This document shows, one piece after another, positions 44,324 through 59,277 of a stretch of 64,000 bases of DNA. The position numbers and the translations under genes were made by a program. Source of the stretch: Flavobacterium limnosediminis JC2902 (GTDB lineage: Bacteria; Bacteroidota; Bacteroidia; Flavobacteriales; Flavobacteriaceae); the NCBI RefSeq assembly GCF_000498535.1, contig NZ_AVGG01000001.1:124001-188000 (forward strand), written 5' to 3'. A model generated the notes under the pieces. It did not search any database. It was not told the DNA's origin and saw only the letters and a program-made list of their open reading frames with translations. The stretch's first letter is position 1. Each line of letters starts with the position of its first letter.

Positions 44324-45028
44324 GTGTTTCAATTCAAACAATTCTCCATTGCACAAGACCGCTGCGCCATGAAAGTGGGCACCGATGGGGTTTTACTTGG
44401 TGCCTGGACTCCGCTTATCAACAATCCATACAACATTTTGGATATTGGTACCGGAACCGGACTAATTGCACTGATGCTGGCACAACGCAGCCATGCCGAA
44501 CAAATAGACGCGATTGAAATTGACGACGACGCTTACGAGCAAGCCACCGAAAACTTCGAAAACTCTCCTTGGAACGATCGATTGTATTGTTACCATGCCG
44601 GATTGGATGAATTTGTGGATGAAGTTGAAGAAGAATTTGATTTGATTGTTTCCAATCCTCCTTTTTATACGGATGAATACAAATCCAATAACGAGCAACG
44701 CGATGCTGCCCGATTTGAAGACTCATTACCTTTTGAAGAATTAGTAGAGGCCGCTGATTTTTTTCTGTCGGAAAACGGTATTTTTTCCTTAATCATTCCC
44801 TACAAAGAGGAAGAGCAGTTAAAAAATCTTTGCGCCGAAAGAGGTTTGTTTCCTTTAAAAATTACCCGTGTTAAAGGCACACCAACTGCCGAAATCAAAC
44901 GCAGTTTACTGGCGTTCAGCCGCATTGAACAGCAGCCCCTTATTGACGAATTGGTTATAGAAACCGCGCGTCATCAATATACTCCGGAATACATTGCACT
45001 TACGAAGGATTTTTATCTGAAACTTTAA
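44324..45028 (+). CDS. trmN6: tRNA1(Val) adenine-N6-methyltransferase
   Basis: The 234-residue SAM methyltransferase has ILDIGTGTGLIALMLAQRS (SAM loop) and LIVSNPPFYTDEY (the NPPF amine-methyl motif), the pattern of TrmN6/YfiC. It methylates A37 of tRNA-Val. Translation appears to start at GTG 44324; no ATG fits the conserved MFQFKQFSIAQDRCAMKVGTD start. It follows rimM by 40 nt and ends 4 nt inside the convergent HlyD gene. Confidence 0.9.
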   Translation: MFQFKQFSIAQDRCAMKVGTDGVLLGAWTPLINNPYNILDIGTGTGLIALMLAQRSHAEQIDAIEIDDDAYEQATENFENSPWNDRLYCYHAGLDEFVDEVEEEFDLIVSNPPFYTDEYKSNNEQRDAARFEDSLPFEELVEAADFFLSENGIFSLIIPYKEEEQLKNLCAERGLFPLKITRVKGTPTAEIKRSLLAFSRIEQQPLIDELVIETARHQYTPEYIALTKDFYLKL

Positions 45029-46326
45029 TTCGGCTTAAAAACATCCCGGAACTGATACAGAATTCGTTCTATCAGACGTAAATCTTCGGTGATAATTTCT
45101 GCCGAACCTTTCATCTCCTGCTGAAACGGGATTTCTTTTTTGTAATTTGTTTTCAGGTTTTGCGGTAAGGCAACATCCATCATGATATTTCCTTCTTTGT
45201 CCGGAACCAAAGATATGTTTTTCACTTCGCCTTTCAGTACGCCGAATTCTCGGTCCGGATAATTAGCCAGACGGATATTTACCTGCTGACCCACTTTTAT
45301 TTTTCCCGAATTGTGCGCCGGTGCTTTTGCTTTTCCGATGTAGCCTTTTTCGGTCTTCGGAACTATTGAAAACACGTTATCGCCCGCATTTATCGTTTGA
45401 TTTTCCACCCAAATCTGAGCAAAAGCCACTTCCCCTTCTATGGACGATTTTAAAACATAATTAAGCTCCCAGTCTTTAATGGCTTTCTTCAGCTGATAAA
45501 AGGACTGTGTAACATTGCGACTCAATGTCACCTCTTCTTTTGTACCGCTGATTTCGGTTCCTTTCACCGCTCTTTTATTTTCGATCAAGGACGATTTCAA
45601 TTGCGAAATGGAAGCCAACAGGTTCTTATAATTTTTTTCCGACTGGAGGTAATTCAGTTTTTTGGTTTCGAATTCCTGATCGGATATCACGCCTTTATTG
45701 TGCAATGCGGTATAACGGCTGATTTCGTTTTTCTGCAATTTCAACTCCTGTTCGTTGATGTTTTTCTGCTGCAACAACAATCGTAATCGCTCCTCAATTT
45801 GGGCACTTTCCGATTTTTTCGCACTGTTTTCCACCTGAAACGGCTGCAAATCGGTATTTAAACCTTCGGCAACATAATCTTTCTGAAACACCGCAAAAGC
45901 ATTTTCTATTTCGCCTAATTGCGCATTGTTTAGTTTTTCAAATGGGAATTCATCTCCTGCATTTGAATTATTAATCAGCTTGTTCAGCAGAAAAACATCT
46001 CTGTAATTCGCTGAGTTTTCAATGACTGCCAAAGGCGTATTTTCCTGAACTACCGATTTATCCTTTACCAGAATGGCTTCAATGCGCCCGGAAACTTTTG
46101 CCACCAGTTTTTCCGGCGGAATGTTGGTTGTAATTACGATTTCGGTCGTTACCACATCCGGATATTTTAAAAACCAGGACATAAAAAACAGCATAATGAT
46201 GATACCGAAAATCAACACCGTTCCCCAGCGGATCATCCAATGTGGGACTTTCGTTAATATATCCTGTACCTCTTCGCTTCTAAGCTGGAAGTCATCCGTT
46301 TGTTTTTTCATTGACTGTTCGGGCAT
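45025..46326 (-). CDS. HlyD-type adaptor of a peptide exporter
   Basis: The 433-residue protein has a cytoplasmic start, one transmembrane helix (about 33-53), then a periplasmic part. That part has a lipoyl-like half (PEKLVAKVSGRIEAILVKDKSVVQENTPL), a long coiled coil (about 175-270) and beta-barrel segments (IKVGQQVNIRLANYPDREFGV). It would link the C39 ABC exporter at 47407 with an outer-membrane channel. A TolC-like channel gene is not in the window. It is the last gene of the unit A operon, after the carboxypeptidase-regulatory-domain gene. Confidence 0.88.
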   Translation of the reverse strand: MPEQSMKKQTDDFQLRSEEVQDILTKVPHWMIRWGTVLIFGIIIMLFFMSWFLKYPDVVTTEIVITTNIPPEKLVAKVSGRIEAILVKDKSVVQENTPLAVIENSANYRDVFLLNKLINNSNAGDEFPFEKLNNAQLGEIENAFAVFQKDYVAEGLNTDLQPFQVENSAKKSESAQIEERLRLLLQQKNINEQELKLQKNEISRYTALHNKGVISDQEFETKKLNYLQSEKNYKNLLASISQLKSSLIENKRAVKGTEISGTKEEVTLSRNVTQSFYQLKKAIKDWELNYVLKSSIEGEVAFAQIWVENQTINAGDNVFSIVPKTEKGYIGKAKAPAHNSGKIKVGQQVNIRLANYPDREFGVLKGEVKNISLVPDKEGNIMMDVALPQNLKTNYKKEIPFQQEMKGSAEIITEDLRLIERILYQFRDVFKPN

Positions 46327-46461
46327 TTTTTTGTTTTTTTTATTGACTGGCAGATAATGCAGACTGACACATTTTACTCTTCACTTTTAACTATTGTCTA
46401 ATCACTCGTTCTTTTAATTCCCTGATTGTAATATCCCGCCAACACAACCTTAATAAATTTA

Positions 46462-47367
46462 CTATTCTATATCGATCATGTAATGTAACTTTTCAAGAGT
46501 CCAAGCATCACTTTTATTTAATAATGCATAATTATATGGTCGGCATAAATATGATTTTCTTATATAATTTTTATTGTACTTATAAGCTTTCAATGCGGGA
46601 ACCGCTGCTATTGAACCATGTTTTGACCAAACAAAATCTGTTTTATAATCTTTTCCATCTAAAATTATAAAAACAACAAAAAAACCCTCGTCCGGAATCG
46701 CTACTTTAAATTTTGAAACATCAACTGTTGTCCATTTTTCAGTATCCGTTTTCGTTACCAAAATATCTTTTTCCAGAATAGGTTTATATGGAAACCCTAA
46801 ACTATCAACAGTATACAGATTCACTTTAAACGGTAAATATTTTAAATTTTTAACTCCTCCAAAATCAGAGACAGCAAATAAAAGATTTTTCACATATTTG
46901 TTATCGTTACTTTTTGGAATATAAACGGCTGCTTTGGCATTCCAGCTGAAATTAGTTTCAAAACTTTTTAGTTTTTCAAAAAAGGAAAGCTCGTCCTTAA
47001 TTTTAGATTTTGAATTAACTATCACTTCAGATAACTGATTTGAGTAGTCATCCAAAAAAATAGTATCTGAAACTATCTTACTTACTTTTTTTTCAAACCC
47101 GATTGAAGAAACCTCAACATAATCAATATTATTCACATATTCATTGGGCATTTCAAACTTCCCGTTTTCATCTGCTATAAAAGTCTTGTGACCGTTCGCT
47201 AAATATATTTTAACCGTTGCCTTTTCGGCTGGAATTTTATAATTTTTTGAATAAATATATCCGAAAAATGATGTTTTACCATTATCATTTTGAGCTTCTT
47301 GAGAAGACATACTATGAAAAACCAATAACAAAATAAAAAATACTCTATGCGCTATTTTTGTTATCAT
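46462..47367 (-). CDS. Carboxypeptidase-regulatory-domain protein in the exporter operon
   Basis: The 301-residue protein has a signal peptide (ends HSMSSQ). A CarboxypepD_reg-like beta domain follows at about 32-100 (GYIYSKNYKIPAEKATVKIYLANGHKTFIADENGKFEMP), then a C-terminal region of unknown fold (about 115-301). It sits between the exporter and the HlyD gene, 39 nt after the exporter. It is more AT-rich than the flanking housekeeping genes. It could be an immunity, surface or accessory factor; nothing in it decides this. Confidence 0.7.
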   Translation of the reverse strand: MITKIAHRVFFILLLVFHSMSSQEAQNDNGKTSFFGYIYSKNYKIPAEKATVKIYLANGHKTFIADENGKFEMPNEYVNNIDYVEVSSIGFEKKVSKIVSDTIFLDDYSNQLSEVIVNSKSKIKDELSFFEKLKSFETNFSWNAKAAVYIPKSNDNKYVKNLLFAVSDFGGVKNLKYLPFKVNLYTVDSLGFPYKPILEKDILVTKTDTEKWTTVDVSKFKVAIPDEGFFVVFIILDGKDYKTDFVWSKHGSIAAVPALKAYKYNKNYIRKSYLCRPYNYALLNKSDAWTLEKLHYMIDIE

Positions 47368-47406
47368 ATTAATGTTTTAACCTTTTCCCTTCTTCTAACG
47401 TCCTTC

Positions 47407-49605
47407 CTAATTCCCTAATTGCAACTGATTCCTAACCAATTCGAAATAATTCCCTTTTTGTTCCACCAAAGCTGAGTGGTTCCCCATTTCTACTATTCGT
47501 CCTTTGTCCAATACTACAATCTGATCTGCGTTCATCACGGTACTCAAACGGTGTGCGATTACTACAACGGTTTTGTCTTTGAAGAACAAATCCAGTTTTT
47601 GCATGATTTCCTTTTCGTTGTTGGCATCGAGGGCCGAAGTCGCTTCATCAAAAAGCAACATTTCCGGATTTTTGTAAACCGCTCTTGCAATTAACAAGCG
47701 CTGTTTCTGACCGGTACTCATCCCCACGCCTTCCGAACCGATTTTGGTATTGTAGCCCAAAGGCAATCCCGAAATATATTCTTTAATATTGGCCACATCG
47801 GCGGCGTAAACTAACCGTTGCTTGTCGATTATATCTACACCAACGGCAATATTGTTGGCAATCGTATCGTTAAAAATAAATCCTTCCTGCATTACGGCGC
47901 CTACATTGTTTCGCCATGCTTTTTGGGAAATGTTTTTTAATTGCGTGTTCCCTATATTGATTTCTCCGTTATTAGGCTCGTAGAATTTAAGCAGCAGTTT
48001 CATCAAGGTTGTCTTTCCGCTTCCGCTGACACCTACAATCGCAGTCACTTTATTGGCCGGAATCGTCATATTCAGATTTTCCAAAACCGGAATATCCGAC
48101 CCTAGATAACGATAGGAAAGATCTTTTATATGAATAGCTTCGTTTTGCGGTACGTCATGCATCTGATGCTCTTCCTGTTGGATTTCATCTTCTTTTTCAT
48201 GAATTTCAGACAATCGGGCCAAGGAGATTTTGGCGTCCTGCACTTCCCTGACAAAGCCGATGAGCTGCGTAACAGGTCCGTTTAAACTGCCTACTATGGA
48301 ACTTATCGCCATCATCATACCGAGTGTGATTTCGCCGTCGATGACCAGTTTGGCCGATAAAAACAGTATGAAAATATTTTTCAGTTCGTTGATTACCGAA
48401 GAACCGATGGTTTGTGTCTGTTCCAACACCAGTCCTTTTATGGAAACCCGAAACAATCGTGCCTGAACGTATTCCCAACCCCAGCGTTTTTGCTTTTCGG
48501 CGTTGTGAAGTTTGATTTCCTGCATGCCGTTGATGAGTTCCATCACTTTGCTTTGTTCCTGACTCACTTCTGAAAAACGCTTGTAATCCAAAGCCTCTCT
48601 TCGCTTTAAGAATAGGGTTATCCATCCGAAATACAAGATGCTCCCGGCAAAAAATACCAAGAAAATCTGCAGGTTATAATACGCTAGAACGCCGCCCATG
48701 ATTACCATATTGATTACGGAAAACAACACGTTTAACGAAGAGGTGGTAAGGATTCGTTCGATACGGCGATGATCATTAATTCGTTGCATAATGTCTCCGG
48801 TCATTCTCACATCAAAAAAGGAAATCGGGAGATTCATCAGCTTGATGAAAAAATCGGAGATCAGCGAAATATTAATTCTTGTGGAAAGATGCAGCGTTAT
48901 CCAACTCCGAATCAATTCCAAACCCGTTCTTCCCGCAAACAGGAACAACTGGGCAAACAAAATCAGATAAATGAAATTGATGTTTTGGTTTTGGATTCCG
49001 ACATCCACGATGCTTTGGGTAAGAAACGGAAAAATCAGTTGCAACAAACTGCTGGCCAATAAACCGATGCTTAACTGCATCAAAAAGGATTTGTAGCGCC
49101 ACAGGTATTGGTACAACATTCCGAATCCCAAACCTTTTTTCTCCTCCTTATCAAAATCCGACTGGTGGAATTTGGGTGTGGGTTCCAATAATAAAGCAAT
49201 GCCTTCCTTAGTAGTTTCGTCAGCATTGTTTCCTATCCAGAATTTGATGAAATCCTGTTGATTGTATTCAATCAATCCGAAAGCCGGATCGGAAATGCAA
49301 TACTTCCCTTTTTTAATATCGTACAGTACAACATAATGCTCCTTATTCCAATGCAAAACACATGGCAAAGGGGCCTCCTCCAACCGTTCCAGATTTAATT
49401 TTACACCCAAGGTCCGGAAACCTATTTTTTCCGCAGCATCACTTAAAAACAAAAGATTACTACCCTCCCGTGTGGTTTCGCTTAAGTTGCGTAACTCTTG
49501 GATATTAATGGTTTTGCCGTAATGTTTGGATACGATTTTTAAACAGGTGGGGCCGCAGTCTTTGGAATCCGCTTGTATGTAGTTGGGGAAATTTTTCAAG
49601 GACAT
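47407..49605 (-). CDS. C39-peptidase ABC exporter (PCAT)
   Basis: The 732-residue protein has an N-terminal C39 protease domain with SKDCGPTCLKIV (catalytic Cys17), NKEHYVVLY (His90) and ISDPAFG (Asp106). Six transmembrane helices (about 165-440) and an ABC ATPase follow: GVSGSGKTTLMK, GVGMSTGQKQRLLIARAV, MLLFDEATSALD, VIAHRLST. PCATs cut leader peptides after double glycine and export the core. Its own substrates are probably the peptides at 49659 and 49990, just upstream. The signature motif reads STGQ instead of SGGQ. All three C39 residues are present, so it should be active. Confidence 0.94.
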   Translation of the reverse strand: MSLKNFPNYIQADSKDCGPTCLKIVSKHYGKTINIQELRNLSETTREGSNLLFLSDAAEKIGFRTLGVKLNLERLEEAPLPCVLHWNKEHYVVLYDIKKGKYCISDPAFGLIEYNQQDFIKFWIGNNADETTKEGIALLLEPTPKFHQSDFDKEEKKGLGFGMLYQYLWRYKSFLMQLSIGLLASSLLQLIFPFLTQSIVDVGIQNQNINFIYLILFAQLFLFAGRTGLELIRSWITLHLSTRINISLISDFFIKLMNLPISFFDVRMTGDIMQRINDHRRIERILTTSSLNVLFSVINMVIMGGVLAYYNLQIFLVFFAGSILYFGWITLFLKRREALDYKRFSEVSQEQSKVMELINGMQEIKLHNAEKQKRWGWEYVQARLFRVSIKGLVLEQTQTIGSSVINELKNIFILFLSAKLVIDGEITLGMMMAISSIVGSLNGPVTQLIGFVREVQDAKISLARLSEIHEKEDEIQQEEHQMHDVPQNEAIHIKDLSYRYLGSDIPVLENLNMTIPANKVTAIVGVSGSGKTTLMKLLLKFYEPNNGEINIGNTQLKNISQKAWRNNVGAVMQEGFIFNDTIANNIAVGVDIIDKQRLVYAADVANIKEYISGLPLGYNTKIGSEGVGMSTGQKQRLLIARAVYKNPEMLLFDEATSALDANNEKEIMQKLDLFFKDKTVVVIAHRLSTVMNADQIVVLDKGRIVEMGNHSALVEQKGNYFELVRNQLQLGN

Positions 49606-49620
49606 TTATTTAATAGTAGC

Positions 49621-49654
49621 AAAAGTAAGGAAAACATGCTTTCCTCCCACTTTT
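49621..49654 (-). terminator. Attenuator-like hairpin between peptide gene and exporter
   Basis: AAAAGT/ACTTTT and AGGAAA/TTTCCT form an imperfect hairpin with a weak T-run on the minus strand. It would lower exporter expression relative to peptide mRNA. Confidence 0.45.
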
Positions 49655-49658
49655 CAAT

Positions 49659-49826
49659 TTACATTTCAAAAGCAGGCATTTCCTGACAGGCCATTTCGAC
49701 GCATTGCCCTCCATATTGGGCGCACATTCCGTTTTCTTTACAGAAAACCTCACCCCCTTTAATTGTTTTTTGCTCTTCTGCTGATATTGTTTGGACTCCA
49801 AATAAGTCTAAAATATTTTTTAACAT
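49659..49826 (-). CDS. Double-glycine leader, four-Cys peptide precursor P1
   Basis: The 55-residue peptide starts MLKNILDLFGVQTISAEEQK and has leader end TIKGG (residues 21-25). The core from residue 26 is EVFCKENGMCAQYGGQ... with Cys at 29, 35, 42 and 47 (spacing CX5CX6CX4C). The MLKNIL...LS..EQK.I.GG pattern is that of bacteriocin-like peptides of Bacteroidota. It starts at ATG 49824-49826 and ends 53 nt before the PCAT gene. The core is related to P3 (54419), with which it shares CAQYG-QC. P1 is too short for many gene finders. Confidence 0.87.
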   Translation of the reverse strand: MLKNILDLFGVQTISAEEQKTIKGGEVFCKENGMCAQYGGQCVEMACQEMPAFEM

Positions 49827-49851
49827 ACTTACTATTTTAAGTTGATTATTT

Positions 49852-49884
49852 AAAAACTGCCTGAAAAATAATTCTCAGGCAGTT
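49852..49884 (-). terminator. Intrinsic terminator/attenuator after peptide P2
   Basis: On the minus strand AACTGCCTGA pairs with TCAGGCAGTT and is followed by Ts. It lies between P2 and P1, so P2 mRNA may end here with partial readthrough into P1 and the exporter. Confidence 0.75.
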
Positions 49885-49989
49885 ATGTGAAAATACATTC
49901 ACATGAAATGCATTTGCCAAAAAAAATTTCAACGTTATTTAAGATGTTCAACTTAACGACAAAATCAAAAATGCATTCTTTAGCCTTTA

Positions 49990-50157
49990 TTAAATTATTT
50001 CACAGCATTGCTGAAAACAAACACCTCCAAGACAGTCAGCATCAACCCTACACCAAAGACCACCATTACAATAATGTTTTAATCCCCCATTGATTTCTTT
50101 TTGCTCATTTTTAGTTAATTCCTGAGTACCTTCTAGGTTTAAAATGTTTTTTAACAT
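49990..50157 (-). CDS. Double-glycine leader, six-Cys peptide precursor P2
   Basis: The 55-residue peptide starts MLKNILNLEGTQELTKNEQK with leader end EINGG (21-25). The core LKHYCNGGLWCRVDADCLGG... has six Cys at 30, 36, 42, 47, 51 and 52 (spacing CX5CX5CX4CX3CC). This density and the closing CC recall small disulfide-knotted peptides, but no specific fold is recognised. It starts 92 nt after the end of the C39-like/VKOR/thioredoxin gene. A conserved leader element (50177-50220) precedes it. Confidence 0.87.
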   Translation of the reverse strand: MLKNILNLEGTQELTKNEQKEINGGLKHYCNGGLWCRVDADCLGGVCFQQCCEII

Positions 50158-50176
50158 GATTTAAAATTTATAAAAT

Positions 50177-50220
50177 TGTTTATTATCTCAATCATTTTAG
50201 GACATTTGAGATTTCTGTCC
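50177..50220 (-). promoter_or_regulatory. Conserved element upstream of peptide P2
   Basis: The 29-bp block at 50192-50220 matches 54633-54661 in 27 of 29 positions; the flank TTATTATC is also shared. On the minus strand it can form a small hairpin, GGACA/TGTCC. The same position 20-22 nt before a peptide start in both units suggests a shared promoter or mRNA leader. Confidence 0.65.
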
Positions 50221-50249
50221 CTTCTTGCGCAAGAATATTTTATAGCTTT

Positions 50250-51818
50250 TTATGCCTGAATTAAAATAATGTTCTCCATTGCTCTTTTTTCTTCTGAAAA
50301 GTCATTGAGAAAATATTTTAAATCACTTATCTCGTATTCGTTTGGAAACTGCTTGTTGTTAATGATTTTTACGGGGGTATAATTGAATCCGTTTTCCAGA
50401 CACCAATCGTATTGTTGGTATAACTGATGGGTCGTTTTCATGTCTATGAATTCCACAATCCATTTTTTCTTCCAAGTTTCCAGTTCCATTTTTTTAATAT
50501 GCCAGTCGATGATTGCTTCTTCCGTCTTTTCCGGAATAAGTTTATCAATGGCCAACAAACTTTCAGCTACTATTCTATAAGGATTCTTTTCATTGTCGGG
50601 ATTGATATTAAACAAAACATTTAAAAACATTTTTTTAGGAAATTTTGAGACCATTTCAAATGCCTCTTCGAATGCTTTGTGGCAATGTCCGCAACTCGGA
50701 CTGATGATTATTGTGAGTTGAGCGTCTGCCTCTTTGTTCCCGAAAGACAAACCTTCTAACTGATCAAAACCGCTCAACACCGGAATTTCTTTTGTTAAAG
50801 AATTAAAAACACTGTAATTTCTTTTAAGTTTTTTCAAATCGAGTACATCCTTCTCTGCTTTAATTTTTCCTTGCAAAATTGGCTTGCCAAACAACCATAC
50901 GAATGTACACAGTAAAAAAGAAAATAGGAATCCGTAAAAGTTAACCGATAAAATATCTGATACTGTTTCATTTGCAAAACCAAAAAGAAAAGCCTGCAGA
51001 ATAACCACAAAGGATACGGCCAAACACAACACGCACCATTTTTTCAAACTGAACTTTTGCAACCAAAAAGAATATAGAATTACCGGAATCGAAAGCAAAC
51101 ACAGCAATCCCACTATTAAACCGGAATCTTTTGGCTGCAGTAGTAGTGACAAAGTACTTATGCTAAAAAAAAGGAGCGGTAAATCTGAAAAATGCATCCA
51201 TTTGGTAATTGCGCTTTTTCCGGAATTAATCACCGAAGAACATGAAGTGTTACTGTTGGCATTACAGAATTTCGAAACTATTTCGTTCTTCAACCCCAGC
51301 TCTTCACGAACAATAAAAACACTGATAAATAATCCGGTTAATGATGTCAACAGTAATACAATAGTATTTAAATTGTAGTTATTGTAAAGCAAAGACATTA
51401 TGATTATCGCGATAATCGGCAGACTGTACAGCATCCATTTTACACTTGCAGTTTCATTCTTTGCAATAATCGCATTATTGGGTTCAACCGCTATGATAAT
51501 TTCATCCCAATCTGTTAGAAACTCATCAAACGTTAACTTTTCTTTCTTTCCCGCCTCCGTTTCAATGCTTATGGAATTTTCATTTTTTGAAACCAACACC
51601 AAGTCGCGTCTGAAAATGGCCAAAAAGAAATCCGGCAATTCCACAAACTGCTCTTTTGGAATTTTTATGGCTATGTTTTCTACAGACAACATATTCAATG
51701 AATCTGTAATGGCAAATACACTCGGATAATTGGGATGGGATAAAAAGAGATCTTCAAAATCTGCTGTCTGGTTGGCGTATTGGCTTTTTTCTAAATACTT
51801 CTTAACTACGTTTATCAT
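50250..51818 (-). CDS. C39-like/VKOR/thioredoxin fusion (peptide disulfide oxidase), unit A
   Basis: The 522-residue protein has three parts. Residues 1-115 resemble a C39 domain (FLSHPNYPSVFAITDSL, LTFDEFLTDWDEIIIAVEP) but lack the catalytic Cys, His and Asp. Residues 128-310 are a VKOR membrane domain with loop Cys185 and Cys193 and WCVLC (Cys262, Cys265). Residues 325-522 are a DsbA-like domain with SPSCGHCH (Cys376, Cys379) and cis-Pro482 in YTPV. VKOR passes electrons from the thioredoxin domain to quinone, which drives disulfide formation. The degenerate C39 part may bind GG leaders. I chose ATG 51816-51818 to match the paralogue at 54687. Cys-rich peptide genes follow directly. Confidence 0.9.
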   Translation of the reverse strand: MINVVKKYLEKSQYANQTADFEDLFLSHPNYPSVFAITDSLNMLSVENIAIKIPKEQFVELPDFFLAIFRRDLVLVSKNENSISIETEAGKKEKLTFDEFLTDWDEIIIAVEPNNAIIAKNETASVKWMLYSLPIIAIIIMSLLYNNYNLNTIVLLLTSLTGLFISVFIVREELGLKNEIVSKFCNANSNTSCSSVINSGKSAITKWMHFSDLPLLFFSISTLSLLLQPKDSGLIVGLLCLLSIPVILYSFWLQKFSLKKWCVLCLAVSFVVILQAFLFGFANETVSDILSVNFYGFLFSFLLCTFVWLFGKPILQGKIKAEKDVLDLKKLKRNYSVFNSLTKEIPVLSGFDQLEGLSFGNKEADAQLTIIISPSCGHCHKAFEEAFEMVSKFPKKMFLNVLFNINPDNEKNPYRIVAESLLAIDKLIPEKTEEAIIDWHIKKMELETWKKKWIVEFIDMKTTHQLYQQYDWCLENGFNYTPVKIINNKQFPNEYEISDLKYFLNDFSEEKRAMENIILIQA

Positions 51819-51941
51819 AATCACTTTTTTCTTTAAAAAATCATCGTGAATAATTTCATTCAACAAATAATTCTGGAGCAAAAGTGTGTCAAAAAAAGAC
51901 CTTAAAAAAGCCCATCCAAATAGAATTTATAAAAAATCGGA

Positions 51942-51961
51942 CTATAATTTATAAATTATAG
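51942..51961. promoter_or_regulatory. Palindrome in the divergent region, unit A
   Basis: CTATAATTTATAAATTATAG is a perfect 20-bp palindrome. Its 16-bp core ATAATTTATAAATTAT occurs exactly at 56362-56377 in unit B. It lies between the VKOR fusion (minus) and the short peptide gene (plus), as expected for an operator of the AraC-type regulator. Confidence 0.6.
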
Positions 51962-52102
51962 CCTATAATTGAACCATTCAACTTTTTGAATTACAACTAC
52001 TTAAAAACAGAAAACAAAATCACTTAATTCAATATTCGGAAAACCCTTATAAGACATCGTAATTTGGATAAATTTGGAAAATAAAAATAAACAATAATAA
52101 AT

Positions 52103-52303
52103 ATGAAAAACTCCAAATTGAAAATTGAAGATTTCTTAAGTGATTCGCTTAATACAAAACAAACTCTAAATGTGTTAGGAGGAGGTGAGGATTTTATACT
52201 ATCCCACCCTCCAAAAGGTACCGGTACAATTTCAAGTGGCGGAACAGGATCGGGACCGACAGATCCAAATCCTATACACTTTGATCCGACAGCGGGAGTT
52301 TAA
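52103..52303 (+). CDS. Short GG-leader peptide without Cys, unit A
   Basis: The 66-residue peptide starts MKNSKLKIEDFLSDSL and has NVLGGGED, a glycine-leader end near residues 24-28. The core is rich in Gly, Pro, Thr and Ser (GTGTISSGGTGSGPTDPNP) and has no Cys. The leader resembles that of the 56522 peptide (M K - - K - - - - - F - S - - L ... VLG.G). Unlike P1-P3 it does not begin MLKNIL, so it forms a second precursor family. It is convergent with the TPR/AraC gene; a shared terminator separates them. Confidence 0.72.
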   Translation: MKNSKLKIEDFLSDSLNTKQTLNVLGGGEDFILSHPPKGTGTISSGGTGSGPTDPNPIHFDPTAGV

Positions 52304-52309
52304 AAAAAC

Positions 52310-52342
52310 AAAAGAGGGAATTAACACAATTCCCTCTTTTTT
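52310..52342. terminator. Bidirectional terminator in unit A
   Basis: AAAAGAGGGAATT pairs with AATTCCCTCTTTT around AACAC. It overlaps the end of the regulator gene. Confidence 0.9.
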
Positions 52343-54078
52343 ATTTCATTAATAAACTGGTAAGGCGTAACCCCTGTTTTTTTCTTAAAGGAGCTGGCGA
52401 AAGAATCGGCGTTTTTAAACCCTACGCTTTCCGCAATGGCTTGTGTAGTATATTCTCTGTATTTCAGATTATTAATGATTTCATTCACAGCATAATTAAT
52501 CCTTAATTCGTTATAATAAACACTAAACGATTTGTTGTAATTTTTATTCACTACATAAGATAAATAGGTGGTGTTTGTTTTTATTTTCTTAGCCACTTCC
52601 TGTTGGGTAAACTCTGGCCTGAGGTAAAACATTTTCTCCTCCAGAGATTTCAACTTTTGCAACAACTCTTTTTCATTGTCAAGACTTATTGAAGAGACTT
52701 CTCTCGTAACTTTATCCGCTTCATTAAGGACGGCTATACTGGAAATCAAAGATTTATGATTCTGAGCCGCATCATTTAATTCGTGCTCCTTGAGTATGGT
52801 TGTTATTTTTTGTTCGGCTGCCTTTCGTCTTTTATAATTTATGATAAAAAGAACGGAAAGTGTTATGAAAAGAAACGTGAAAAATCCGATCATACTGTTT
52901 TTAAAAAAAACTTCATTTTTATGCTCTTTCTGTATGGTATTCATTTCCTTTTCCAAATCCTGATTCCCAATCTTATAATTGACATCCAATACATTCTGAT
53001 AATTTTTGAATTCATTTTTCTCGAAATTATCCAAATAAATCCTCGAATACTCCAGAGCTTTTTCCGGTTCTCCAAGGGTGTCATAAATCTTAGCCAGATA
53101 ATAGTTCGAATGAATATATTCAATATAATTCGAGCCAGATGATTTATAAATCGAATCGACTTTTTGAAAATAAACCAGGGCAGCTTCAAATTGTTTAGCC
53201 CTATACTTCAAAAACCCCAGATTATAGTTGGCATTGCAATATTCCTTTTCAAAATTGGCACTTTTCGCCTGGGTAAGAACACTGACATATGCTTTCTCTG
53301 CTTCAACAATCCTGTTTTTTAAAAAATAAATAATACCCATCTCTTTTTGGGCTTTTAATTTATTTTCCATTATATCATCAGAATACTTCAGTGTTTTATT
53401 GAAATAATAAAATGCCGAATCACACAAATGAGTTTTTGTTATATTTTTTAAAAATAAACTCTCATAATAAACTCCTAGATTAATATTTACATTACTCTTG
53501 TTAATATTGTATTGACTTTCCGAAAACAAGTGACTGTTTGCTTCAATAATTCTGTCGGATTCTTTGGTAGTGGCAATGGCTTTGCTGTAATTCCCCGCAT
53601 CACCGTCAATAAGCGCAATGTTATTATTTATCTTAACAATCTGAACGATATCATTTATGCTTTCCGATAATTTTTTAGCTGCAAAATAGTTATCCAATGC
53701 ATTGGGAAATTTTCCATTCAACCAATCGATAAGACCGCCGTAATTGTAGATATACGATTCGTTTTGGGTTTTTGAATACGATTTCGGAGCGTTTTTGATA
53801 AATTTTACGGCGTTTTTATAATACTTTTCAGCATTTGTAAAATCTCCTTTCATAGCATACAGATAGCCTTTCGCCCCGGAAGAAAATGCTTTATGGATGG
53901 CATTATCCGATTTTTCAATTTTAGTGGCATAAAAAAAAGAGCTGTCCTTATTAGAATTAAAATATGCCCTTGTTTTATCCTGTAAGGTAAGATACTCCTC
54001 ATTCGACAACACACTTTTATCTTGAGAAAGCACTATCAGTGAATTCAGAAAACAAATAAAAAAAATAATTCGACTCAT
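52321..54078 (-). CDS. Membrane-spanning TPR/AraC-type regulator, unit A
   Basis: The 585-residue protein has a signal sequence (MSRIIFFICFLNSLIVLSQ) and a TPR-like periplasmic region (about 30-380, e.g. KALEYSRIYLDNFEK). One transmembrane helix follows (FFKNSMIGFFTFLFITLSVLFII), then a charged linker and a C-terminal AraC helix-turn-helix pair (QEVAKKIKTNTTYLSYVVNK and TTQAIAESVGFKNADSFASS). The layout lets a periplasmic signal be passed to DNA binding. A 28-bp motif at 54161, about 83 bp upstream, recurs in unit B. I use ATG 54076-54078; the frame has an earlier ATG at 54099. Confidence 0.88.
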   Translation of the reverse strand: MSRIIFFICFLNSLIVLSQDKSVLSNEEYLTLQDKTRAYFNSNKDSSFFYATKIEKSDNAIHKAFSSGAKGYLYAMKGDFTNAEKYYKNAVKFIKNAPKSYSKTQNESYIYNYGGLIDWLNGKFPNALDNYFAAKKLSESINDIVQIVKINNNIALIDGDAGNYSKAIATTKESDRIIEANSHLFSESQYNINKSNVNINLGVYYESLFLKNITKTHLCDSAFYYFNKTLKYSDDIMENKLKAQKEMGIIYFLKNRIVEAEKAYVSVLTQAKSANFEKEYCNANYNLGFLKYRAKQFEAALVYFQKVDSIYKSSGSNYIEYIHSNYYLAKIYDTLGEPEKALEYSRIYLDNFEKNEFKNYQNVLDVNYKIGNQDLEKEMNTIQKEHKNEVFFKNSMIGFFTFLFITLSVLFIINYKRRKAAEQKITTILKEHELNDAAQNHKSLISSIAVLNEADKVTREVSSISLDNEKELLQKLKSLEEKMFYLRPEFTQQEVAKKIKTNTTYLSYVVNKNYNKSFSVYYNELRINYAVNEIINNLKYREYTTQAIAESVGFKNADSFASSFKKKTGVTPYQFINEIKKRELC

Positions 54079-54160
54079 TTCTATTATATTACCCCGCAAA
54101 AGTAATCTTTACCTCACGCATAACCAAACGAATCACACAAAGTAAAATTTTTACCTCATA

Positions 54161-54188
54161 AAATTATAACAATCTAAAATCGAATAGT
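54161..54188. promoter_or_regulatory. Recurrent upstream motif, copy 1 (regulator A)
   Basis: AAATTATAAC begins a 28-bp block about 83 bp upstream of the unit A regulator. Related copies are at 58582 and 59250. It is a candidate autoregulatory site. Confidence 0.5.
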
Positions 54189-54257
54189 GTTTTTTTTGCG
54201 CTATTAAAACGTACAAAAACCTATCTATTACCAAGCTACAGTTGGTTCAGTCCAATT

Positions 54258-54308
54258 TAAAAAAAACAGCCATAGATTACTTCTCAATGTTTAGTAATCT
54301 ATAGCTGT
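54258..54308 (-). terminator. Terminator after peptide P3 (end of unit B)
   Basis: ATAGATTACT (54272-54281) pairs with AGTAATCTAT (54293-54302). The stem is extended by ACAGC/GCTGT, and the T-run is on the minus strand. The 54100-54418 gap otherwise holds the regulator A promoter region and spacer. Confidence 0.85.
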
Positions 54309-54418
54309 TGGCTATCGAAATTATTTCACAAGGCTAATTCCTAACTCTTTTAAATCAGCCTGTTGATAGTTTGGGGTTTCCGAAGATTTTTATCAATAAG
54401 GAAAACGTCCCAAACGGT

Positions 54419-54595
54419 TTAAACCAAATTAATATCAAAAAGGGGCACTTCTTTACAAGCAAGTTCCTCACACTGATTTCCGTATTGAGCACACATTCTG
54501 TCTTGTTTGCAAAGTGTCTTTTCGTTTTTAATACTTTTTTGCAGATTTTTGGATAATTTTTCAACCCCCGTGATACTTAAAATGTTTTTCAGCAT
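54419..54595 (-). CDS. Four-Cys peptide precursor P3 without a GG site, unit B
   Basis: The 58-residue peptide starts MLKNILSITGVEKLSKNLQK and has SIKNEK where P1 has TIKGGE. The core is LCKQDRMCAQYGNQCEELACKE... with Cys at 29, 35, 42 and 47, the same spacing as P1, plus a short tail (PLFDINLV). It is clearly a paralogue of P1. The missing double glycine means either that the exporter cannot cut it or that it is processed elsewhere. It starts 91 nt after the unit B VKOR fusion. Confidence 0.85.
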   Translation of the reverse strand: MLKNILSITGVEKLSKNLQKSIKNEKTLCKQDRMCAQYGNQCEELACKEVPLFDINLV

Positions 54596-54616
54596 AATTA
54601 AAGTTTTTTTGGTATT

Positions 54617-54661
54617 GGATTATTATCCCAGTCATTTTAGGACATCTGAGACTTCTGTCCG
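54617..54661 (-). promoter_or_regulatory. Conserved element upstream of peptide P3
   Basis: Positions 54633-54661 match the P2 element at 50192-50220 in 27 of 29 bases, with the flank TTATTATC also shared. It starts 22 nt before the P3 start. Confidence 0.65.
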
Positions 54662-54686
54662 TTTATGTATGAATTTAAATGGATTC

Positions 54687-56249
54687 TTATGCCTGGGCTA
54701 AACGGCCGCTTCCAACCGCTTCCCTTTCCTCTGAAAAGTCATTAAGGAAATATTTCAGATCAGTGATTTCATATCCCTCCGGAAACATTCGTCCGTTTAT
54801 GATTTTAACGGGAGTATAATTGAATCCGTTTTTCTGGCTCCAGTTATACTGCTGACGGATCTGATGGCTGGTCTTCATATCCACAATGTTGCTTGCCCAT
54901 TTTGCTCTCCACTGGTCAAGTTCCATATTTCTGATGTGCCAATCGCTGACTGCTTCAACCGTTTTTTCCGGAAATGAATTGTGTATGGCCATCAGTTGTT
55001 CCACAACCACCTTATAAGGATTGTCATTGTTTTCGGTATTGATATTAAACAACACGTTTAAAAACACACGTTCCGGAAATTTTGTAACAAGATTAAAGGC
55101 TTCCGCGAATACTGTATGACAATGCCCACAACTCGGACTGATAATTACCGTTAATTTGACATCGGCATTTTTATTCCCGAAAAACAATCCTTCCAGTTGG
55201 TTAAAACCGCGTTTTGAAGGTACGTCTTTGGTCAGGAAATTAAAAAGTGCATAATTCCTTTTGAATTTTATCGCTTGAAGCACCTCTTTGTCTGAACTGC
55301 TTTTGGCTTCGAAAACCGGTTTTACCAACAACCATGTGGAAGTGAAAAAGAAAACGGAAAACAAAAACTCAAAAAACTGGATTGAAAAAACAGCGGGAAA
55401 AGATTCGGTTTCCAATCCGAAAATCAGCACCTGAACTACCACTATAAAAGATACTGCCAGGCATAAAACGCACCATCTTTTCAATTCTACCTTTTGTATC
55501 CAAACCGAATACAGCAGTATCGGAAGCGAAAACACACTAAGAAACCCAACAATTATTGCTGAATCTTTAGGTTGAATTGCTATCGCCATCACACTGATAC
55601 CGAAAAAAAGGAAAGGAAGATCCGAAAACGGAATCCCTTTTTTACCGTAATCGGATGTAATTACTGAATTACAGGAAGTCTTTGGCGTTATGGCGCAGAT
55701 TTTAGAAACCATCGCATTAGCATATCCGAATTTTTCCTGAAGGATTAAAACACCTGCAATCAAACCCACAAGTGAAGTTGCCAACAGCATCATGCTTCCT
55801 GCGTTGTAATCATTATAAATAAGTGAAAGCAAGATTAACACAAGTACCGGAAGCGAATAACCGATTCCTTTAACAGTAAACCGATCCTTCTTGATATCGA
55901 TTACTTCATTAGGTTCAACAGCAATAACGACCTGATCCCAATCCGTAAGGAATTCATTAAAGGACAGTTTTCTTTTCTTTCCATTTTCGAATTCGATTTT
56001 CACATAAGAATCCCTTTTCTGAACCAAAACCATATCTTGATTAACAATGGCAAGGAAAGATTCAGGAAGTTCCACAAACTGTTCTTTCGGGACTTTAATT
56101 GCTACATTAGGTATAGACAACGAATCTAATGAATCGGTAATCGCAAACACACTCGGATAATTGGGATGAGATAAGAAATAAGATTCAAAGTCATCTTTTT
56201 GATAAGTGTAATTACTTTTCTCTAAATACCTTTTGACAATGTTTATCAT
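54687..56249 (-). CDS. C39-like/VKOR/thioredoxin fusion, unit B
   Basis: The 520-residue paralogue of the unit A protein keeps all its key cysteines: loop Cys185 and Cys193, WCVLC (Cys260, Cys263) and SPSCGHCH in the thioredoxin domain. The N-terminal C39-like part again lacks the catalytic triad (FLSHPNYPSVFAITDSLDSL). The central membrane domain starts GYSLPVLVLIL. The end reads AVGSGRLAQA. It lies directly before P3 and is divergent from the peptide gene at 56522. No exporter follows in unit B, so this unit must borrow one, possibly that of unit A. Confidence 0.9.
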   Translation of the reverse strand: MINIVKRYLEKSNYTYQKDDFESYFLSHPNYPSVFAITDSLDSLSIPNVAIKVPKEQFVELPESFLAIVNQDMVLVQKRDSYVKIEFENGKKRKLSFNEFLTDWDQVVIAVEPNEVIDIKKDRFTVKGIGYSLPVLVLILLSLIYNDYNAGSMMLLATSLVGLIAGVLILQEKFGYANAMVSKICAITPKTSCNSVITSDYGKKGIPFSDLPFLFFGISVMAIAIQPKDSAIIVGFLSVFSLPILLYSVWIQKVELKRWCVLCLAVSFIVVVQVLIFGLETESFPAVFSIQFFEFLFSVFFFTSTWLLVKPVFEAKSSSDKEVLQAIKFKRNYALFNFLTKDVPSKRGFNQLEGLFFGNKNADVKLTVIISPSCGHCHTVFAEAFNLVTKFPERVFLNVLFNINTENNDNPYKVVVEQLMAIHNSFPEKTVEAVSDWHIRNMELDQWRAKWASNIVDMKTSHQIRQQYNWSQKNGFNYTPVKIINGRMFPEGYEITDLKYFLNDFSEEREAVGSGRLAQA

Positions 56250-56360
56250 GACACTTTTTTTATTTTATACGCAGTGAGATACTTTAATACTTGTACAAAT
56301 ATTTAGCTATTTCAGCAATAAAAAAAGGTGTTGTTTTTACAATTTGCAAATTATAACATG

Positions 56361-56378
56361 CATAATTTATAAATTATG
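56361..56378. promoter_or_regulatory. Palindrome in the divergent region, unit B
   Basis: CATAATTTATAAATTATG is a perfect 18-bp palindrome. Its 16-bp core equals that at 51944-51959. AAATTATAAC also occurs just before it (56348-56357). This is the probable operator region between the VKOR fusion and the peptide gene. Confidence 0.6.
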
Positions 56379-56521
56379 AATGCAAACAATTTATATAATA
56401 ATTTGATTTACAACTTATTATGAATAAACAATAAAAGAACAGCTTCCAATTGAACAAATCCTGAGTTTACTAATTTGTTTCTCTTTAAATTTGGAATGTT
56501 AACAATAAAACCTCACTCACT

Positions 56522-56746
56522 ATGAAATCAAAAAAATTTAACCTGGACAATTTCGCTTCGAATGAATTATCAAGAAATCAGAAAATAACAGTTCTGGGCA
56601 AAGGGGATCCGACAGCGATTCTGACGCCGGTTGATGCAACCATTATTTTAACGACAACCGAAGTTATAGTAACTACTACTACACCACTTCCGGGACCGGG
56701 TGACGGAACAGGAATTGGTAATGGTGAAGGTAGAAAAGCCAGATAA
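56522..56746 (+). CDS. Short GKG-leader peptide without Cys, unit B
   Basis: The 74-residue peptide starts MKSKKFNLDNFASNEL and has ITVLGKGDP near residues 22-30, aligned with NVLGGGED of the unit A peptide. Here the GG is replaced by GKG. The core is rich in Thr, Pro and Gly (TTTTPLPGPGDGTGIGNGEG) and has no Cys. It ends 2 nt before the convergent regulator gene, without a terminator between. It could be a signal peptide for the regulator; this is inference from position. Confidence 0.7.
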   Translation: MKSKKFNLDNFASNELSRNQKITVLGKGDPTAILTPVDATIILTTTEVIVTTTTPLPGPGDGTGIGNGEGRKAR

Positions 56747-56748
56747 AT

Positions 56749-58515
56749 TTATACCGTACTATCTAATTTTTTAGCAAACTGAACAGGGGTCACCCCTGTT
56801 CTTTTGCTGAAAGATTTCGTGAATGAAACCGCGTTTTTAAACCCTACGCTTTCGGCAATGGCTTGTGTGGAGTATTTTCTGTAAGTAGGATTTGAAATCA
56901 TTTCATTAATCACGTAATTAATCTTCAGCTCATTTGAGTACTCACTGAATGATTTTCCAAATCTTTTATTCACCACATATGACAGGTAAGTGGTATTGGT
57001 CTTAATCTTTTTGGCGACAAACTGCTGTGTAAAATCGGGGTTCAGATATAATAATTTATCCTCAAGATTTTTTAGCTTTTCAACAATTTCTTCCTCCTTC
57101 TCTTCATCAATACTGAATATCGGACTTTCCTTCTTAATTTGATTTTCCGCTTCCATTATCTCAGGCTGCAGGTCCGGAATCATTTCGACAACTGCATTCT
57201 TTTTTTCGATATTCTCTTTATACTGAACAATAAGTTCGTTTAACTTTTGATCTGTTTTACGTTTGTCCCTACGGTTTTTTATTAAACTAACAACAAGAAT
57301 AACAAACAAACCCATTAGAAAAATATATCCTGATTTTTTCAACAAAGTTCTGTTTTTAAGATCCTGTTGCAAATCATCCATCTCTTTTTTCAGATCATTA
57401 CTGCTCAGGTTGTAATTTACCCCAATAATTTCCTCGTTTAATTTGATTTCTTTCTTTTCGAAGTTTTCCAAATACTCCTTTGAATGACTCAACGCCTTAT
57501 CATAATCCTTCTTAAAAGACCAGATTTTCGCCTGATAATAGTTTGAATAAATATAATCAGAAGCGTTGCCTTCATTTATATCGTAGATCGAATCCACCTT
57601 TTTAAAATAAACCAAAGCTTTGTCATATTCTTTTAACGCGAAGTATAACTCCCCAAGATTTCGGTTTGTCAAACTGAATTCATTTACATAATTCCCGTTT
57701 TTGGTGCGGACAAACAATTTGTGATGAAGTTTTTCTGCGTTGTTGAAGTCTTTTTTCAGCAAATACACATTTGCTAAATTCATTTCCGAATTAATCCTGT
57801 TGATTTCCGAATTTTTGGAAAACATTATGGCTTTTTTAAAATAATATTCCGCAGAATCCAGCATAAACGTATTAGCCCTGTTCTCCGAATAAAATTTCTT
57901 GTAAAAAATTCCCAAATTGGAGTAAATACTGCATTTTCCATTGGCAAATTGTTCCTCGCTGTACAAATATTCAATCTTATTTGTGAATCGGTCCGATTCT
58001 TTTGCAGCTTCAATTGCCAATCTGCAATTACCCACTTCCAGGTTTATTATTGATATGTTGTTATTTAATTTAACCACCTGCATCAGATCGTTGGCTTTTT
58101 CAGCAAACTTTTTGCCCTCCTGATAATATCCAAGTGCTTTACTGAAATTCCCTCTTTTCCATTCAGCCAAACCTCCATAATTCAAAAGATAGGCATTCAA
58201 CTTATCCTTTTCAGCTCCCGACGGGACCTTATTGAACAGTTCAAAGGCTTCTTTGTAAAGTTTACGGGATTTAATACTGTCTCCTTTAATCTGGTACAGG
58301 TATGATTTTAATCCTACAGCAAAGGACTGGTGGAGGTTATCTTTGGATTTCGCTATTCTGTTTGCATAGATGAAAGAACTGTCAACGTCAGAATTTATAA
58401 ATCCCCGTGCTTTTGCCTGCAAATTTTGATATTCCTCGTTGCTCAAAACGGATTTGTCTTGAGCAAAAAGTGAATTGGTTAACACGAAAATTGAAAAGTA
58501 TAAAAACAGTCTCAT
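56749..58515 (-). CDS. Membrane-spanning TPR/AraC-type regulator, unit B
   Basis: The 588-residue paralogue of the unit A regulator has a signal sequence (MRLFLYFSIFVLTNSLFAQ), TPR-like periplasmic repeats, one transmembrane helix (SGYIFLMGLFVILVVSLI), a coiled linker and an AraC-type pair of helix-turn-helices (QFVAKKIKTNTTYLSYVVNKR, STQAIAESVGFKNAVSFTKS). The second helix-turn-helix is nearly the same as in unit A, so both may bind similar sites. The start is ATG 58513-58515. The recurrent motif lies about 70 bp upstream. Confidence 0.88.
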   Translation of the reverse strand: MRLFLYFSIFVLTNSLFAQDKSVLSNEEYQNLQAKARGFINSDVDSSFIYANRIAKSKDNLHQSFAVGLKSYLYQIKGDSIKSRKLYKEAFELFNKVPSGAEKDKLNAYLLNYGGLAEWKRGNFSKALGYYQEGKKFAEKANDLMQVVKLNNNISIINLEVGNCRLAIEAAKESDRFTNKIEYLYSEEQFANGKCSIYSNLGIFYKKFYSENRANTFMLDSAEYYFKKAIMFSKNSEINRINSEMNLANVYLLKKDFNNAEKLHHKLFVRTKNGNYVNEFSLTNRNLGELYFALKEYDKALVYFKKVDSIYDINEGNASDYIYSNYYQAKIWSFKKDYDKALSHSKEYLENFEKKEIKLNEEIIGVNYNLSSNDLKKEMDDLQQDLKNRTLLKKSGYIFLMGLFVILVVSLIKNRRDKRKTDQKLNELIVQYKENIEKKNAVVEMIPDLQPEIMEAENQIKKESPIFSIDEEKEEEIVEKLKNLEDKLLYLNPDFTQQFVAKKIKTNTTYLSYVVNKRFGKSFSEYSNELKINYVINEMISNPTYRKYSTQAIAESVGFKNAVSFTKSFSKRTGVTPVQFAKKLDSTV

Positions 58516-58581
58516 TTCAAAAATTTTGACAAAAGTAACCATTATGAATTAAATTCCGCTTCATCATGCTTTAGTAAATTG

Positions 58582-58605
58582 AAATTATAACACTAACAAA
58601 TTGAG
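58582..58605. promoter_or_regulatory. Recurrent upstream motif, copy 2 (regulator B)
   Basis: AAATTATAAC followed by ACTAACAAATTGAG, about 70 bp upstream of the unit B regulator start. It corresponds to copy 1 in position and sequence. Confidence 0.5.
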
Positions 58606-59249: not shown

Positions 59250-59277
59250 AAATTATAACACCCTCAAATTGAATAGT
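59250..59277. promoter_or_regulatory. Recurrent upstream motif, copy 3 (orphan)
   Basis: AAATTATAAC then ACCCTCAAATTGAATAGT; close to copy 1 (about 23 of 28 positions). No regulator gene follows on the minus strand. The nearest plus-strand gene is the acyl-CoA dehydrogenase at 59406. Confidence 0.45.

Follow-up and report, generated by a model that had tools for sequence, protein, structure and literature searches.

Why would a bacterium keep two gene units of the same order side by side, each pairing a predicted membrane oxidase with cysteine-rich peptides and each with a regulator of its own that is predicted to span the membrane, and supply both with a single peptide exporter? This question is raised by a locus (positions 45025-58542) in a 64,000-nucleotide stretch of Flavobacterium limnosediminis JC2902 (contig NZ_AVGG01000001.1), which we refer to in its whole length as the window. 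In each unit, a regulator gene with tetratricopeptide repeats (TPR) and an AraC-type DNA-binding domain faces a short convergent peptide gene, here called P. A palindrome separates P from a divergent gene that fuses a C39-like, a VKOR and a thioredoxin-like domain, and the fusion is followed by genes for cysteine-rich peptides of the MLKNIL type, here called M. The cluster is real, conserved and functionally coherent. On balance, we favor a reading in which the two tandem cassettes fold and export disulfide-bonded peptides and are switched on by their own cysteine-free peptide, which is sensed by the TPR/AraC regulator. The locus itself is probably a disulfide-peptide export system.

Two units and one exporter

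An earlier note on this DNA had described two units of the same order and orientation, with the exporter and adaptor only after unit A, and we found all the parts that it named. They are listed here, with the peptidase-containing ABC transporter abbreviated as PCAT, transmembrane as TM, helix-turn-helix as HTH and double-glycine as GG.

56749..58515, minus strand: regulator B, with a predicted signal sequence, periplasmic TPR domain, one TM helix, coiled coil and AraC-type HTH
56522..56746, plus strand: pepB, a cysteine-free short peptide of the P class, convergent to regulator B, leader ending in GK
56362..56377, no strand: 16-bp palindrome of unit B, a putative operator between pepB and fusion B
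54687..56249, minus strand: fusion B, with a degenerate C39-like domain, VKOR and a thioredoxin/DsbA-like domain
54419..54595, minus strand: MLKNIL peptide B, 58 amino acids, four cysteines, leader without GG (KNE instead)
52321..54078, minus strand: regulator A, architecture as regulator B
52103..52303, plus strand: pepA, a cysteine-free short peptide of the P class with a GG leader, convergent to regulator A
51944..51959, no strand: 16-bp palindrome of unit A, a putative operator between pepA and fusion A
50250..51818, minus strand: fusion A, with a degenerate C39-like domain, VKOR and a thioredoxin/DsbA-like domain
49990..50157, minus strand: MLKNIL peptide A1, GG leader, six cysteines
49659..49826, minus strand: MLKNIL peptide A2, GG leader, four cysteines
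47407..49605, minus strand: PCAT, with C39 peptidase, ABC membrane and ATPase domains
46462..47367, minus strand: CarboxypepD_reg-like accessory protein, between PCAT and HlyD
45025..46326, minus strand: HlyD-type adaptor

Both units lie on the minus strand and run, in transcription order, from the regulator through the fusion to the MLKNIL peptide gene or genes, while the plus-strand short gene of each unit converges on its own regulator and diverges from its own fusion. An MLKNIL gene follows each fusion, as the note had it; the number had to be corrected to two in unit A and one in unit B. Likewise, PCAT and HlyD genes do stand after unit A, and the CarboxypepD_reg-like gene between them had been overlooked. 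One set of these three genes, downstream of unit A, is present for both units. Fusions A and B are 57-58% identical and the two regulators 43%, with the HTH part visibly more alike than the TPR part. Regulator B would start at 58542 if the first ATG were taken; the ATG at 58515 corresponds to M10, which is invariant in 30 aligned homologues.

Regulator, P peptide and palindrome occur together

The convergent short peptide, which the earlier note had left uninterpreted, belongs to a separate, mostly cysteine-free class with GG leaders that is tied to the regulator. Its genes often stand in tandem, with up to eight copies per locus. A first count covered 89 fusion units of the genus with at least 4 kb of upstream sequence; L108, a duplicate of the F. 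sinopsychrotolerans locus L008, was dropped from it. Regulator and P were both present in 69 units, the regulator only in 2, P only in 0, and neither in 18 (Fisher p 6e-17). For the final count, a P gene of L172 that our leader model had missed was added, and the second fusions L107_6683 and L121_10417, whose regulator lies beyond another fusion, were scored as lacking both. In L112, P is absent and the regulator stands 4.6 kb upstream, just past the 4.5-kb limit; the unit was therefore scored as lacking a regulator and would otherwise be a second exception. So coded, the same 89 units comprise 68 with regulator, P and palindrome, 20 with none of the three, and one, L185, with a regulator alone.

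The palindrome ATAATTTATAAATTAT is present in both units, with 0.01 copies expected in the window. In the 3.47-Mb genome, exact copies of AYAATTTATAAATTRT are confined to the two unit sites, and three more places match it with one mismatch. Across the genus, the best match to AYAATTTATAAATTRT has 0-2 mismatches in 68 of the 69 units with a regulator. In the remaining 20 units it has 3-6, and shuffled sequences come within two mismatches in 1 of 89. Taken together, the expected number, the genome-wide rarity and the mismatch counts against shuffles led us to reject a chance origin of the palindrome. In 67 of 68 units, 102-144 nt separate it from the fusion that it precedes, and its core is near invariant in the 68 aligned sites. 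A second, less conserved copy of its left half follows about 23 nt on (counted by eye), and such repeat spacing is known from AraC-type operators.

Along the fusion tree, regulator, P and palindrome change 8-9 times. Eight independent pairs can be drawn on this tree, of which seven agree, none is opposite and one shows no difference (p 0.016). The cysteine-rich peptides, the fusion and the exporter persist in genus units without both regulator and P. Outside the genus, P without regulator seemed to occur in two calls at L098, which proved to be cysteine-rich peptides misfiled by the leader model.

The regulator as candidate receptor

How might such a peptide be sensed? The model of the regulator has an N-terminal hydrophobic helix (residues 2-26) and a C-terminal HTH, and reading of the sequence places a TM stretch near residues 403-424. 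By structural match, the predicted periplasmic TPR domain folds like the Rap/NprR receptors, and like other TPR proteins. We observed that the cores of the P peptides co-vary with the TPR domain and not with the HTH, and that P cores are more alike within loci than their own leaders predict. These patterns suggest that P is probably a pheromone and the regulator its one-component TPR receptor.

Cysteine-rich peptides and their leaders

The number of cysteines in the M cores is even in 290 of 298 peptides (2, 4, 6 or 8 in nearly all). When the set is thinned greedily at 60% similarity, 141 of 147 still have an even number. This parity points to the pairing of cysteines in disulfides. The leaders of M and P differ at their N-termini and have in common L or I at -12, Q at -7, K at -6, I or V at -4, and the double glycine. 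Because of this common code, one PCAT could serve both classes. The GG leader, about 25 amino acids long here, was found in 242 of the 298 M peptides of the genus and in 156 of 166 P peptides, a count from which MLEK peptides and any with at least two cysteines were left out. As in class II bacteriocins, GG-leader peptides thus stand near a PCAT (present in 77 of 82 units), and the M peptides are likely bacteriocins.

Locus L115 holds nineteen M-type peptide genes between fusion and PCAT. The leader ends of the unit-B peptides, KNE and GK, are paralleled in the relative L106 (RNE and GK), so that the lack of GG in unit B looks like a lineage trait rather than decay.

The fusion oxidase and its orientation

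The fusion model (mean pLDDT 85.9) combines a C39 fold (residues 1-120), a VKOR domain (145-286) and a ScsC/DsbA-like domain (340-509). The VKOR profile PF07884 scores 48.9 and 50.9 bits against a curated cut-off of 27.5. Against solved structures, the VKOR part alone gave no match by single sequence and weak ones by profile, and its assignment to them comes from structural alignment of the model. Six redox cysteines are invariant in all 37 aligned fusions: C185, C193, C260 and C263, which make up the VKOR CxxC and loop cysteine pair, and C374 and C377. Together with the even cysteine parity of the M cores, they fit oxidative folding. The genome contains no other PF07884 match and no DsbB match; other oxidant sources were not searched for.

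The C39 fold is present, but no cysteine is found among the conserved columns of residues 1-120, and by eye we saw no counterpart of the catalytic histidine in fusions A and B. In the C39 structural alignments, the aligned part starts at chain residues 22, 28 and 18, in one case beyond the catalytic cysteine. C39-like domains without proteolytic residues (CLD) are needed for substrate recruitment in HlyB-type exporters, according to the available text of PMC6363468. Some distant fusions (L097, L103) begin with (M/I)DNC, a cysteine that may be a remnant of the catalytic one.

On which side of the membrane does this oxidase work? The hydropathy of the family speaks for six TM segments. This exceeds by one what a VKOR-thioredoxin fusion needs, and the extra, N-terminal segment would bring the C39-like domain, the cysteine loop, the CxxC and the thioredoxin domain to one side. 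With TM borders that we set from hydropathy and model, lysine plus arginine averages 14.5 in 80 positions on the active-site side and 0.73 in 22 positions on the other. All 37 fusions agree in the sign of this density bias, which points to a cytoplasmic active-site side. In line with the rule applied, the two loops of the operon's PCAT expected to be periplasmic hold no lysine or arginine, and its cytosolic loops hold 2 to 14. As controls, we took seven stand-alone VKORs from the phylum, chosen for short open frames; five of them (L190-L194) have no lysine or arginine on the active-site side, opposite to the fusion. The other two, L195 and L196, are possibly also turned inward.

We therefore lean, if only slightly, toward a fusion oxidase predicted to face the cytoplasm, an estimate lowered a little because two of the seven controls share its bias. 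Since the bias puts the active site on the cytoplasmic side, oxidation may precede export. The earlier note's proposal that the peptides are folded and exported here gains from the cysteine parity and the redox cysteines, while its assumption that oxidation takes place outside the membrane is put in doubt by the charges. The VKOR of the archaeon Aeropyrum pernix is reportedly active in two compartments, to go by the title of Hibender 2017, which gives the idea a precedent.

Distribution and chromosomal setting

At E ≤ 1e-20, the fusion was found in 92 of 299 genomes of the genus and in 55 of 397 of the family. We mapped 143 loci: the window, L008, L009 and 140 stretches of up to 20 kb each. 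Another 20 stretches of the genus and the remaining fusion matches entered no count. A contig scan with strict peptide patterns reached two loci only. The usual order in the genus is the regulator, one to eight P genes in the opposite direction, the fusion, 1 to 19 M genes, PCAT and HlyD. Co-occurrence across genomes, which the earlier note had proposed as a check, bore it out within the genus: among 82 units with at least 6 kb downstream, M peptides occur in 75, PCAT in 77, HlyD in 69, and M and PCAT together in 70, and a regulator of this type occurs in 71 of the 89 units of the first upstream count. Outside the genus the association is weaker. Of 54 units with enough downstream sequence, 35 have a PCAT and 27 a cysteine-rich peptide, the latter a lower bound because the leader model was built on the genus, and a TPR/AraC regulator of this type was found in 0 of 57 units. 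The core cassette is thus spread across the phylum, and the TPR/AraC-P circuit is seen in the genus Flavobacterium only.

Tandem duplication, part of the note's description of the system, is not its essence: two long fusion genes occur in 9 of 84 genus loci (the window, L107, L121, L165, L166, L170, L172, L175 and L178), mostly with one exporter. Nor does comparison of the fusions support a recent duplication as the origin of units A and B. L106 and L107 carry closer relatives of fusion B than fusion A is, and L009 and L106 carry closer relatives of fusion A than fusion B is. Of 83 genus loci (L108 left out), 69 have common flanking housekeeping genes on at least one side, 54 on both and 14 on none, with an acyl-CoA dehydrogenase/TenA-like gene on one side and trmN6/rimM/rpsP on the other. 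By these flanks the locus is, for most of the genus, old and fixed rather than a recent island, and a mobile-element setting is not supported there.

Distant relatives of the fusion do occur on plasmids of Parabacteroides distasonis and Aureibacter. On the former (NZ_OY725766.1; L188, 4587-14721), a TPR protein lies upstream of the fusion relative, and a cysteine-rich small open reading frame (ORF), a LanC-like gene, glycosyltransferases and a PCAT are also present; on the latter, the relative is accompanied by small ORFs, PCAT and HlyD. A TPR/AraC match was found in 22 of 299 family genomes, and three loci from other genera were inspected (L040-L042). In L041 (172-3405), several GG-leader small ORFs flank the TPR/AraC gene, and three TPR/AraC genes lie close together on the contig; this is possibly another peptide-receptor set and hints at a wider theme. 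Homologues of the CarboxypepD_reg-like protein occur in 4 of the 143 mapped loci (the window, L048, L106 and L168). The sequence AAATTATAACA is found four times in the window against 0.18 expected (54161-54171, 56348-56358, 58582-58592 and 59250-59260). The copies precede the two regulators, fusion B and the acyl-CoA dehydrogenase gene, and the sequence is possibly a further regulator site.

A proposed circuit and its rivals

In the mechanism that we propose, the PCAT would cut M and P after the double glycine and export both together with HlyD. The cysteine-free core of P would gather outside the inner membrane and bind the TPR solenoid of the regulator, which, through its single TM helix, would then make the AraC domain act on the palindrome that separates the divergent promoters of P and the fusion. 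P would thereby boost its own production and turn on the genes for the fusion, the M peptides, PCAT and HlyD. The C39-like domain, without catalytic cysteine and histidine, would hold the M leader while the DsbA-like domain oxidizes the M cysteines; VKOR would re-oxidize the DsbA-like domain and pass the electrons to menaquinone. Judging from the charge bias, oxidation would come ahead of export, at the cytoplasmic side of the membrane, since the leader is found nowhere else. The full combination, a quorum-sensing circuit of a kind not known in Gram-negatives joined to an inside-out oxidase that folds leader-held precursors in the cytoplasm, is a tentative proposal and rather doubtful as a whole.

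The same cassette could instead oxidize its peptides in the periplasm, with the PCAT delivering reduced cores, VKOR and thioredoxin domains facing the periplasm, and the C39-like domain left as a relic or a holder of the exporter. We regard this arrangement as a serious possibility, somewhat short of an even chance. Characterized bacterial VKOR/DsbA pairs are known to act outside the inner membrane, and the thioredoxin part of the model resembles the periplasmic ScsC and DsbA. Bacteroidetocin clusters, as described in the accessible part of PMC6671954, also place a thiol oxidoreductase next to a PCAT. Against it stands the charge bias, which runs the same way in all 37 fusions and the other way in five of the seven stand-alone VKORs, and a leader-binding fold would be useless where the leader has already been cut off. 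Alternatively, the locus could be a plain cluster of the bacteroidetocin type (class IIf) with an ordinary regulator. The functional set is indeed equal (a cysteine-bearing GG-leader peptide, a thiol oxidoreductase, a peptidase-containing ABC transporter and a TM protein), but the leaders are about 25 residues long instead of 15-16, three domains are joined in one chain, and HlyD, P and a TPR/AraC regulator go unmentioned in that part of the source (PMC6671954), so that we find this reading quite unlikely.

What P does is a separate matter. It may be a second exported product, such as a cysteine-free antimicrobial, immunity or partner peptide, with the regulator sensing envelope stress or a nutrient and controlling both P and fusion. 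TPR domains have many ligands, weapon genes may likewise come in multiple copies, as P does with up to eight, and among the database names of P relatives are one 'bacteriocin' and three 'rSAM-modified peptide'. Such a product would hardly be expected to be absent from every regulator-less unit among the 89 while the cysteine-rich peptides, fusion and exporter persist there, nor to have cores that track the TPR domain and not the HTH and that resemble each other within loci beyond what the leaders predict; we hold it to be unlikely. P could also be a radical-SAM-modified peptide, as the name on three close relatives says. The genome has 12 radical SAM matches, none of them in the cluster and one in the window about 25 kb away (G000:C1:143515). 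As the present cluster has no such gene (those of relatives were not screened for one), we rate this reading as very improbable.

Several observations weigh against the circuit and the cytoplasmic orientation that we favor. L185 carries two regulators, both distant, and neither P nor palindrome; in L112, P is missing and a regulator stands 4.6 kb upstream. In the structure match, eukaryotic TPR proteins score at least as high as Rap, and TPR solenoids bind many things. The leaders of P also track the TPR distances (partial r 0.31, p 0.0005), so that part of the signal may reflect a faster pace of the TPR domain, and the permutation leaves some shared ancestry in the P-TPR co-variation, most loci being syntenic. 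In the 143 pairs of P peptides from within loci, the similarity of the eight C-terminal residues barely exceeds that of the leaders (0.80 vs 0.79), and of the 50 pairs with leader identity below 0.75 it is the higher of the two in 29. A regular GG is lacking in 56 of 298 M peptides and in both unit-B peptides, and by the leader model half of the units in other genera come without a cysteine-rich peptide. As to orientation, two of the seven control VKORs (L195, L196) share the fusion's bias, the positive-inside rule predicts and does not prove, the extra N-terminal TM segment is itself predicted, and disulfides made in the cytoplasm must survive a reducing compartment.

Were the circuit true, Bacteroidota would practise quorum sensing by peptides, through a receptor whose TPR part lies in the periplasm and which itself acts on DNA. 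The 68 units with regulator, P and near-invariant operator are natural test material, and the pairing of P core and TPR domain could serve to predict and test signal specificity in laboratory flavobacteria. Were the topology true, nature would offer in the fusion a device that ties disulfides in the cytoplasm and selects its substrates through their leaders, which would bear on how PCAT substrates gain their disulfides and would be useful for making disulfide peptides. The reading would also give a meaning to the uninformative database names 'bacteriocin' and 'rSAM-modified peptide'.

Comparison with known systems

In the open-licence literature, among the matches listed, we found no title or opening of an abstract that describes the C39-like/VKOR/thioredoxin fusion with peptides, which is no proof of novelty, and likewise none on a TPR/AraC pheromone receptor in Bacteroidota. 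A text search of the available part of PMC4555120 returned neither Bacteroidetes nor C39. According to the accessible part of PMC10352776, genes with TPR domains occur in two putative Bacteroidales clusters for ribosomally synthesized and post-translationally modified peptides; it also mentions the suggestion that in other bacteria such domains help to regulate genes once a pheromone is bound.

The closest described relatives are the bacteroidetocins (class IIf), GG-leader peptides that their authors regard as disulfide-bonded and whose clusters also encode a thiol oxidoreductase, a TM protein and a PCAT (PMC6671954, as far as its available text goes). Common to both are the phylum, cysteine-bearing GG-leader peptides, the thiol oxidoreductase (in most of their regions) and the peptidase-containing ABC transporter, and their TM-protein gene beside the peptide gene is a further likeness to the present cluster. 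By contrast, C39-like, VKOR and DsbA-like domains form one chain here, where the same text describes separate TM-protein and thiol-oxidoreductase genes; leaders have about 25 amino acids rather than 15-16; and HlyD, a second peptide class, the TPR/AraC regulator with its operator-like palindrome, and up to 19 M genes come in addition. By gene content and leader length, the locus appears to stand apart from class IIf.

The fusion is like the Synechococcus VKOR (4nv2) in its VKOR fold, its CxxC and loop cysteine pair and its covalently joined thioredoxin-like domain; it differs from VKOR-thioredoxin fusions by the extra predicted N-terminal TM helix and the C39-like fold. With the HlyB-type CLD it has in common a C39 fold without proteolytic residues, which is fused here to an oxidase and not to an ABC transporter. 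As for the circuit, plantaricin and Blp are class II clusters induced by a GG-leader pheromone through a histidine kinase and a response regulator. The present locus would resemble them in that a GG-leader pheromone, exported by the bacteriocin PCAT, induces the bacteriocin operon; unlike them, it would have a single membrane-bound protein with a TPR sensor do the work of kinase and response regulator together, and its host is Gram-negative. The RRNPPA systems (Rap, NprR, AimR) are described, in the part of PMC10075063 available, from Gram-positive Firmicutes with an intracellular receptor. The regulator shares with them, in the model, a TPR solenoid of the Rap/NprR type; here this follows a predicted signal sequence and is itself followed by a TM helix, with a C-terminal AraC HTH as output. 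The earlier note's claim to novelty therefore holds in part: the coupling of a disulfide-bonded, PCAT-exported peptide with an oxidoreductase is already known from the bacteroidetocins (PMC6671954, same text), and what is new is the proposed control circuit and the architecture of the oxidase.

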